NCBI GenBank assembly: GCA_028875575.1
Contig: JAPPDF010000003.1
Location: forward strand, 1-64,000
DNA: 64,000 nucleotides
Direction of reading: 5' to 3'
Source: Acidobacteriota bacterium
GTDB taxonomy: Bacteria > Acidobacteriota > Terriglobia > Versatilivoradales > Versatilivoraceae
The position numbers and the translations under genes were made by a program. The notes below the pieces were generated by a model that made no database searches, was not told the origin of the DNA, and saw nothing but the letters and a program-made list of their open reading frames with translations. Shown piece after piece: positions 1-24,090 of the stretch; the stretch's first letter is position 1, and each line of letters begins with the position of its first letter.

Positions 1-191
1 GCGTGCTCGGGAGCGAAGAGCGTAGCGGTCACTACGGTCGAGCGAGCATGGATGGGCTGAGGGGAAAAGGACAAGACAGGGCATGCCCAGCGCCGTGTGT
101 CACCGCAAGGCATCCCAATCGGGGGAACGAGTTCCAGAAAATAAATGGCCTTTCATCATGACTCCGGCGACCTGGTGAGAAATGCGGGTTA
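1..191. repeat. Right part of a TA-flanked MITE-like repeat (family A, copy 1)
   Basis: This stretch matches 23897-24090 with gaps: both contain GAAGAGCGTAGCGGTCAC, then GGCATGCCCAGCGCCGT, and end in CTGGTGAGAAATGCGGG followed within one base by TA. The right terminal repeat is at 172-189 (17 of 18 bases equal to the other copy) and the flanking TA is at 190-191. The left end lies outside the window. The element ends five bases before the start codon of the agmatine deiminase gene. The homology is seen directly; the transposon origin is inferred. Confidence 0.75.
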
Positions 192-195
192 CCGA

Positions 196-1266
196 ATGCC
201 GGCGGAATGGGAGCCTCACGAGGCAACCTGGATCGCCTGGCCGCACTATCGGGCCGATTGGCCCGGGAAATTCGCGGCCGTCCCCTGGGTCTTCGGCGAG
301 GTGGTGCGCCACCTGCACCGCCACGAGCGGGTCAGGATCCTGGTGGAGAACGGGTGGCTGGAAAGACGGGCCCGCCGGCTGCTTTTGCAGGCCCAGGTGG
401 ATTTGGCTGCCGTTGAGTTCCACCAAGTGGCCACCAACCGCAGCTGGCTGCGCGACACCGGTCCGATTTTTGTCCGGGGGGGCGATTCCGGGCCGGCCGA
501 GATGGGGATTCTGGACTGGCAATTCAACGGCTGGGCCAGGTACTCCAATTGGCGGCGGGACGATGTTGTTCCCGCCGCCATCGCTCGTCTGCTCGGCTTG
601 AAATGCCGTCAGCCAAGGATCTCACCAGGCGGACGCAGGATCGTACTGGAAGGAGGCGGCATCGACGTGAACGGCCGGGGAACCCTGGTCACCACCGAGG
701 AGTGCCTGCTCAGCCCCATCCAAGCCCGCAACCCGGGAGTTTCCAGGCCGGAGATGGAGGATATCTTCCGGCACTACCTTGGGGTCGCCAAAGTCATCTG
801 GCTGGGTCGAGGGATTGCCGGCGACGATACCCACGGCCACGTGGACGACATCGCCCGCTTCGTGAACCCGACCACCCTGGTGGTTTCCGTGGAATCCGAT
901 CGGCGGGACGCCAACTACGAGGCGCTACGGGAAAACCGGAGGCGGCTGGCCGAGGCCACCGACCAGGACGGCCGGCCCCTTCGGATGGTTGAGCTTCCCA
1001 TGCCGCGGCCCCTGATTTTCAGAGGGCAGCGCCTGCCCGCCAGCTATGCCAACTTCTACATCGCCAACCGGACGGTGCTGGTCCCCACCTTCAACGACCC
1101 CAACGACCGCCTGGCGCTGAGCCGGCTCAGCCGGCTATTCCCGGAGCGGTCCGTGGTCGGCATCCACAGCGTCGATCTGGCATGGGGTTTCGGGACCCTT
1201 CACTGCCTCACCCTGCAGCAGCCCCTCCATGGATCATCTGGCGGGCGGCCTGCGAGATGGCCTTGA
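196..1266 (+). CDS. aguA: Agmatine deiminase (peptidyl-arginine deiminase family)
   Basis: This enzyme hydrolyses agmatine to N-carbamoylputrescine and ammonia in the cytoplasm, on the arginine-decarboxylase route to putrescine. The 356-aa product opens with MPAEWEPHEATW, the usual N-terminal signature. It carries TNRSWLRDTGP, EGGGIDVNG, the His/Asp motif DDTHGHVDD (about residues 211-219) and the catalytic cysteine in GTLHC (about residue 337). The frame is open back to 145, but 145-191 is the end of a repeat element that recurs at 24 kb, so I place the start at 196. No strong ribosome-binding site precedes it. The 3' end overlaps the convergent aceE-type gene by 59 bp. No decarboxylase or carbamoylputrescine amidase gene is nearby. 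The family call is firm; the start is less so. Confidence 0.88.
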   Translation: MPAEWEPHEATWIAWPHYRADWPGKFAAVPWVFGEVVRHLHRHERVRILVENGWLERRARRLLLQAQVDLAAVEFHQVATNRSWLRDTGPIFVRGGDSGPAEMGILDWQFNGWARYSNWRRDDVVPAAIARLLGLKCRQPRISPGGRRIVLEGGGIDVNGRGTLVTTEECLLSPIQARNPGVSRPEMEDIFRHYLGVAKVIWLGRGIAGDDTHGHVDDIARFVNPTTLVVSVESDRRDANYEALRENRRRLAEATDQDGRPLRMVELPMPRPLIFRGQRLPASYANFYIANRTVLVPTFNDPNDRLALSRLSRLFPERSVVGIHSVDLAWGFGTLHCLTLQQPLHGSSGGRPARWP

Positions 1267-23840: not shown

Positions 23841-24090
23841 TAGCCCGCATTTCTCACCAGTGGGCAAGATCATGGCGCAGGACTTTTCCCTTCAGCGCGT
23901 GCTCGCGACCGAAGAGCGTAGCGGTCACTACGGTCGAGGGAGCCTGTGCGCGCTGAAGGGAAAAAGACCAGCCAAGGCATGCCCAGCGCCGTCTGTTATC
24001 CGCAAGCCCTTTACATGGAGCCAATCACTGTACTGAAAGATACACTACCCTTCGTCATGCCATCAGCGGCCTGGTGAGAAATGCGGGCTA
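23841..24090. repeat. Complete TA-flanked MITE-like element (family A, copy 2)
   Basis: A 250-bp unit including both flanking TA pairs (23841-23842 and 24089-24090). The 18-bp terminal repeats GCCCGCATTTCTCACCAG (23843-23860) and its exact complement (24071-24088) are perfect. The inside has no credible gene but has short inner inverted repeats around 23907-23940. Another copy forms the start of this window. TA duplication and short perfect ends are what IS630/Tc1-mariner-type transposases produce; no such transposase is in the window, so the mobiliser is inferred. It fills the gap between the receiver gene and the lipoprotein gene. Confidence 0.85.

Follow-up and report, generated by a model that had tools for sequence, protein, structure and literature searches.

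The first codons of a gene are a place where an insertion is expected to kill it. At the start of the DNA analyzed here, however, a mobile repeat leads straight into a long open reading frame (ORF), raising the question of whether the gene behind it has survived and, if so, where its translation begins. The whole stretch, termed the window, covers the initial 64 kb of contig C3 in an Acidobacteriota genome (G000; 4.49 Mb in 101 contigs). It begins inside the repeat because the contig starts there. We consider it very likely that insertion of a MITE cut off the native start codon, that the element now forms the start of the reading frame, and that the gene has been maintained.

The gene matches the PF04371 profile (385.8 versus a cut-off of 25). 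The two closest named matches listed are Acidobacteria/Acidobacteriota with 85-86% identity, and further matches in named genomes occur in many Acidobacteriota MAGs as well as in other phyla. It scored below both NCBIfam cut-offs for agmatine deiminase, i.e., the TIGR03380 equivalog (270.2 versus 381.8 bits) and NF010070 (280.8 versus 483 bits), and we therefore name it PAD/agmatine-deiminase-like (aguA-like hereafter), its substrate being uncertain.

The repeat belongs to a MITE family

Joining the end of contig C39 to the window identified the repeat as the right 188 bp of a 241-bp element, and alignment of 30 genome matches defined the element ends as CCCGCATTTCTCACCAG and its reverse complement. 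Window positions 1-260 have at least 41 matches in their own genome, self included (of 143 candidates from a first look, 40 were scored), and nearly all matches reaching the right end of the repeat stop at query positions 187-194, with one extending to 215. The terminal 16-mer GCCCGCATTTCTCACC, allowing up to one mismatch, was found at 77 + 82 sites in the 4.49 Mb, a count far above chance, versus 0 + 0 sites for the reversed pattern. In stretches of 48 contigs covering part of the genome (320,546 bp), we identified 55 end pairs, corresponding to 51 elements of 239-245 bp, three of 126-127 bp, and a single 712-bp element, along with 30 unpaired ends.

The 54 small copies with paired ends show the features by which MITEs are recognized. 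They are short, multicopy, and devoid of a transposase gene; they possess 17-bp terminal inverted repeats and, as a family, a 4-bp target duplication; and empty sites exist in relatives, in five of seven congeners at the aguA-like gene and five of seven at a JAB gene described below. The duplication is perfect in 28 of the 53 small copies for which both flanks were available (22 CTAG, 5 TTAA, and 1 CTGG), compared with 1 of 53 for shifted tetramers used as a control. The exact 17-mer end is present in all seven genomes of the genus, at 3 to 102 sites each. It is absent from the 5 genomes examined from elsewhere in the family, and among 29 genomes at greater distance 3 contain it, with no more than 4 sites; the reversed 17-mer gave one site in 1 of 41 genomes. 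A second copy, complete, lies further along the window (Table 1), and a search of window positions 1-400 against Rfam gave no match. Among the 30 unpaired ends of G000, 14 are located within 250 bp of a contig end, and the family is likely to cause some of the breaks in this assembly.

The YTAR-like target led us to guess an IS5-group origin, which was rejected: a search of G000 for IS4/IS5-type transposases (DDE_Tnp_1, PF01609) gave 0 matches. The IS1380-type transposase profile (PF13701) gave 10 matches, 8 of them above the cut-off, in five of the seven congeneric genomes searched, with no full-length transposase among them. MITE ends, with 0-2 mismatches, bracket three of these 10 loci (L172, 756 bp; L174 and L176, 712 bp), two more loci have a MITE end on one side, and five have none. 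The L174 reading frame matches PF13701 at 3e-29. Since L174 and L176 appear to represent a single element present in two genomes, the link with the transposase rests on approximately two independent elements, whose likeness to the MITE was seen at the ends only.

Based on these ends, common to the MITE and to transposase remnants of the same genus, the MITE is probably a non-autonomous transposon derived from the IS1380 family. It lacks the transposase of the insertion sequences of that family, and its duplication of 4 bp differs from the 5 bp listed for IS1247, an IS1380-family member, in the available excerpt of PMC3281130. The TTAA targets and CCC ends also recall piggyBac, for whose tree the IS1380 transposases serve as the outgroup (excerpt of PMC10813416).

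Table 1 Features of the window discussed in the text.
Feature	Position	Strand	Basis or remark
MITE, right 188 of 241 bp	1..188	+	left 53 bp at the end of contig C39
Agmatine-deiminase-like ORF (PF04371), 373 aa from ATG145	145..1266	+	ORF list, profile match
TGA ending the leader ORF (native ATG on C39)	159..161	+	starts 14 nt past ATG145
Right terminal inverted repeat CTGGTGAGAAATGCGGG	172..188	+	end comparison
GGTGA (174-178) and outward ATG (182-184) in the terminal repeat	174..184	+	out of the aguA frame
Right target copy TTAC	189..192	+	four bases left of the element on C39 are GGTA
Native Tyr-Arg codons TAC CGA	190..195	+	part of the conserved G-[YF]-R that precedes MPAEW
Met of MPAEW, alternative start	196..198	+	Leu in congener G006
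Second MITE copy, complete, 244 bp	23844..24087	+	end search

The MITE is inserted near the start of the aguA-like gene

The left flank, including the native ATG, lies on contig C39, which ends inside the element and whose last 47 bases are identical to the first 47 of the window. As this overlap is family consensus sequence, the join between C39 and C3 rests also on the arrangement in a congener, G005. There, one contig holds both flanks together with the entire element, which is internally shorter by 48 bp and lies between a gene of the TraB/GumN family (PF01963) and the aguA-like gene. A misjoin at the repeat edge that placed the gene next to a MITE end might be suspected, given that the window opens at the edge of a contig and within a repeat of high copy number and that almost half of the unpaired ends (14/30) are similarly close to contig ends; nevertheless, the separate assembly of G005 has left flank, element, and gene in the same place, and G000 has the matching left flank running into the element, making such an artefact exceedingly unlikely.

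The junctions in G000 read GACGGGTA/CCCGC on the left (C39) and GCGGG/TTAC/CGA ATG on the right (window). The target duplication is now imperfect, and the right target copies differ between the two carriers (TTACCGA and TACCCGC). Two of the seven congeneric genomes, G000 and G005, have the MITE at this site and in the same orientation; their left junction is the same, so the insertion was taken as shared. The insertion point is the boundary between codons 9 and 10 of the native gene, and the net insert amounts to 244 bp in G000 and 196 bp in G005.

The site is empty in the five other congeners (G001, G002, G003, G004, and G006), whose genes start with MGLISTPDGYR/MPAEW or a variant; in G003, the start reads ATG GGC CTG ATT TCG ACA CCC GAC GGT TAC CGC ATG CCG, and the others are variants of it. 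Where these five have MGLISTPDG (G002, G003), MGLIAIPHG (G001), MGLIAIPNG (G004), or MDPIAIPNG (G006), G000 has MAFHHDSGDLVRNAG, which supports an earlier proposal, made from the window alone, that the native leader may have been replaced. The same proposal would have been contradicted by relatives with identical residues upstream of MPAEW; G15-Y16-R17 are the sole residues shared, and Tyr-Arg are native codons downstream of the insertion.

The element contributes the start of the reading frame

A TAA at 142-144 closes the aguA frame directly before ATG145, and the first 44 bases of the ORF lie in the MITE, comprising codons 1-14 and two bases of codon 15. The repeat thus forms the apparent N-terminus, as originally predicted, with an overlap one base shorter than the 45 given; the distance from its end to ATG196 had also been misjudged, being 7 bases rather than five, given that 188 is the last base of the right terminal repeat. 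The element encodes residues 1-14 and most of residue 15, and Gly15 is rebuilt from the GG of the element and one target base. In most copies of the MITE, this frame would run into the TAG or TAA of the target at the element edge (median of 0 open codons outward); at the aguA-like gene it is open because the target, TTAC, differs from the usual CTAG and TTAA, both of which would create a stop codon there.

The native ATG, in turn, has been put out of frame. Its distance to the Met of MPAEW increased from 33 nt in the empty sites to 277 nt in G000 and 229 nt in G005, and both gains (244 and 196 nt) leave a remainder of 1 when divided by three. The native ATG now opens a leader ORF of 80 codons in G000 and 64 codons in G005, and the TGA of the latter is likewise found 14 nt past the equivalent of ATG145.

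Three in-frame start codons precede the conserved block: ATG145, GTG175, and ATG196. The original prediction had the conserved family sequence begin at 196, in disagreement with the 29 best-scoring loci from whole genomes other than that of the window, in which the position is Met in 22 and is preceded by Arg at -1 (24/29), Tyr or Phe at -2 (24/29), and Gly at -3 (22/29). Position 1 of PF04371 aligns to residue 17 (Arg), and the conserved sequence begins before 196. In the best 80 of 580 named loci, a set gathered partly with the peptide MPAEWEPH and with a Met count inflated accordingly, we found Met in 74, Arg in 68, Tyr or Phe in 63, and Gly in 51. The residues before Met196 are not strictly conserved, the native Tyr being Thr in G005.

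These alignments bear on the possibility that translation starts at ATG196, in which case the element adds no residues and position 145 is simply the start of the longest ORF. The frequency of Met in both sets, a weak GGGT before ATG196 together with the lack of a Shine-Dalgarno match for ATG145, and the three codons between ATG145 and 196 at which the carriers differ, two of them nonsynonymously, are in line with such a start. Conversely, an in-frame ATG, GTG, or TTG lies within 60 codons upstream in 28 of the 29 whole-genome loci and an in-frame upstream start is present in all 80 named loci, most loci keep Tyr/Phe-Arg directly before the Met, and G006 has Leu at this position, indicating that Met196 is not the ancestral start, though it may be the one in use today. 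We regard ATG196 as a serious contender that is nonetheless less probable than ATG145, the most likely candidate for the current start, which we rate as an even call; a start at GTG175 is distinctly unlikely.

Scoring of ribosome-binding potential did not separate these candidates. The anti-Shine-Dalgarno scores of ATG145 (-3.3) and ATG196 (-3.2) equal or nearly equal the median of random positions (-3.3), compared with approximately -4.8 for the first ATGs of 55 long ORFs. Codon-bias scoring separated sense from antisense too weakly to back any conclusion. With a longer anti-Shine-Dalgarno tail, a standard sequence that may differ from the host 16S, there was no match for ATG145 or GTG175, and the sole five-base match was GGTGA, aligned 6 nt before the out-of-frame ATG182. 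For the suggestion that the element may provide a ribosome-binding region, this gives a well-placed GGTGA at ATG182 and no Shine-Dalgarno-like pairing at ATG145. That it may provide a promoter is not supported, with 0 sigma-70-like sites across window positions 1-260, the C39 end that holds the left part of the element, and the G005 element; nor was a terminator found in these three stretches.

The native starts themselves (G000, G005, G001, G002, and G003) score between 0 and -2.7, with no good Shine-Dalgarno sequence, suggesting that the aguA-like gene may rely on translation of the gene next to it upstream, the stop codon of which is 28 nt before the native ATG (in G005). As the end of the leader ORF, with its TGA, overlaps ATG145, termination followed by reinitiation on a shared mRNA is plausible. 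In the explanation we favour, an IS1380-kind MITE landed between codons 9 and 10 in an ancestor shared by G000 and G005, and the added length, not a multiple of three, split off the native start (ATG GGC CTG..) from what follows. The old start now opens the short leader ending inside the element, and the gene survives owing to the last 44 bases of the element being open in the right frame. Translation would begin further downstream than before, with ATG145 the most probable site; we infer this start codon, its coupling to the leader by reinitiation at or after the TGA, and read-through transcription from the TraB/GumN-family gene.

The gene has been kept by selection

The carriers diverged after the insertion if it is shared, so that the changes between them report on the fate of the gene since then. 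From Met196 onward (356 codons), dN/dS between G000 and G005 is 0.295 (Nd 30.5, Sd 34.5), and the 20 other congener pairs range from 0.231 to 0.348. Finding 31 or fewer nonsynonymous changes among 65 (30.5 and 34.5 rounded) has a probability of 6.7e-6 under a neutral model. The aguA-like gene is therefore under purifying selection between the carriers and has been kept. A young pseudogene, broken by the insertion, would account for the native start being out of frame in both carriers, but it fits poorly with an ORF that is intact in both and with the departure from neutrality, and we consider it very unlikely.

Two differences among the congeners were also observed in this gene. Both carriers have 7-11 extra C-terminal residues compared with the other five congeners (window 1230-1266), and a stretch of about 30 residues in the G003 gene (L037; VSWASVEIHGGATTRGGRRDSGRICVGGGG) departs from the other six, as if it had been misread or locally frameshifted and then restored.

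Relation to known repeat insertions

Replacement of the first codons of a gene by a small repeat is an event of a kind already described for enterobacterial and Rickettsia repeats, as far as the available excerpts of the respective papers go. The enterobacterial RU-1, RU-2, and RU-3 repeats are fused in frame to genes (Delihas 2007, PMC2759123). Like the MITE, they contribute a frame of their own, in some cases N-terminally (YP_0349); they belong to a different element family and host. In the passages available, they are added to an ancestral gene with no dN/dS test shown, whereas replacement by the MITE is documented by five empty sites, a frame shift, and dN/dS. The Rickettsia palindromic elements are also small repeats within genes that modify the product by translational fusion (PMC10969869, in excerpt), but they are inserted in frame and bring a conserved peptide, whereas the MITE shifts the frame and the gene would survive by a new start. 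Among the open-access papers listed, none mentioned this MITE family, or a MITE of the IS1380 kind that supplies start codons, in its title or the opening of its abstract. Within the literature searched, the new aspects are the element family, the combined evidence from empty sites and selection, and the start codon in the terminal repeat.

Start codons in the terminal repeats at other genes

At both MITE ends, a GGTGA and a suitably spaced ATG point outward (GGTGAGAA-ATG-CGG-G). Of 137 element ends, 96 read exactly GGTGAGAAATGCGGG outward, 124 have ATG at this place, and 131 have an in-frame TGA one codon before it. Two genes appear to have acquired this ATG, their native start codons being deduced from the reading frame and not from annotation. 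A Prok-JAB gene (PF14464) has the MITE at a TTAA in G000 (L225, C68:18460-18870) and G005 (L226), and the other five congeners (L227-L231) have empty sites with a GTG two codons upstream (GTG GCG GTT AAA in G003). In G000, the element now separates this presumed native GTG from the rest of the gene, and the new start in both carriers reads ATG CGG GTT AAG. The G000 and G005 genes differ by 9 synonymous and 5 nonsynonymous codons out of 141.

The second gene, lnt (PF20154), has a MITE after CTAG at the same position in G000 (L235, C20) and G006 (L240, C67), in opposite orientations, indicating that the insertions were independent; both give a new start MRAS... In G002, G003, and G004, there is no MITE and an upstream GTG is the likely start, and G001 and G005 show, by eye, degenerate repeat-like sequence only. 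At the aguA-like gene, the role of the terminal-repeat ATG is taken by a different frame of the element. In all, three genes in one genus appear to survive MITE hits by an element end that brings, or leaves open, a new start.

The terminal repeat could accordingly be a portable translation start, with the MITE giving a new start codon in either orientation, although we think this somewhat unlikely as a general reading; if true, it would soften the cost of MITE hits near the 5' ends of genes. Ends with at least 60 open codons outward numbered 43 of 137 for the ATG frame, 49 for the read-through frame, and 19 for the frame that the TAG or TAA of the target usually closes, compared with 62, 44, and 51 of 134 for the same three phases 400 nt further out. 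No genome-wide preference of the terminal-repeat ATG for the frame of the neighbouring gene was found among the 137 ends, the ATG frame being, if anything, poorer than its control, and the supply of start codons is thus a capacity seen at single genes rather than a genome-wide rule. These cases illustrate how small transposons can find a place in dense bacterial genomes, alter the N-termini of proteins, and lead the annotation of gene starts astray.

Several other candidates were left out of the count of start replacements. Comparison with congeners indicates that ubiE (ATG) and a comEA-like gene (GTG) retain their likely native start downstream of the element. The same was judged by eye from the translations for other genes, among them what we take, from those translations, to be pyruvate phosphate dikinase, ruvB, ychF, and a symporter. 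A DUF3108 gene was set aside because repeat-like sequence (GGTGAGATATGCGGG) precedes it in all seven congeners, with no empty site. At the start of this gene, all seven (L242-L248) read GGTGAGATATGCGGGC(G/A)AG, one mismatch from the MITE end, which is either an old solo repeat or a chance resemblance.
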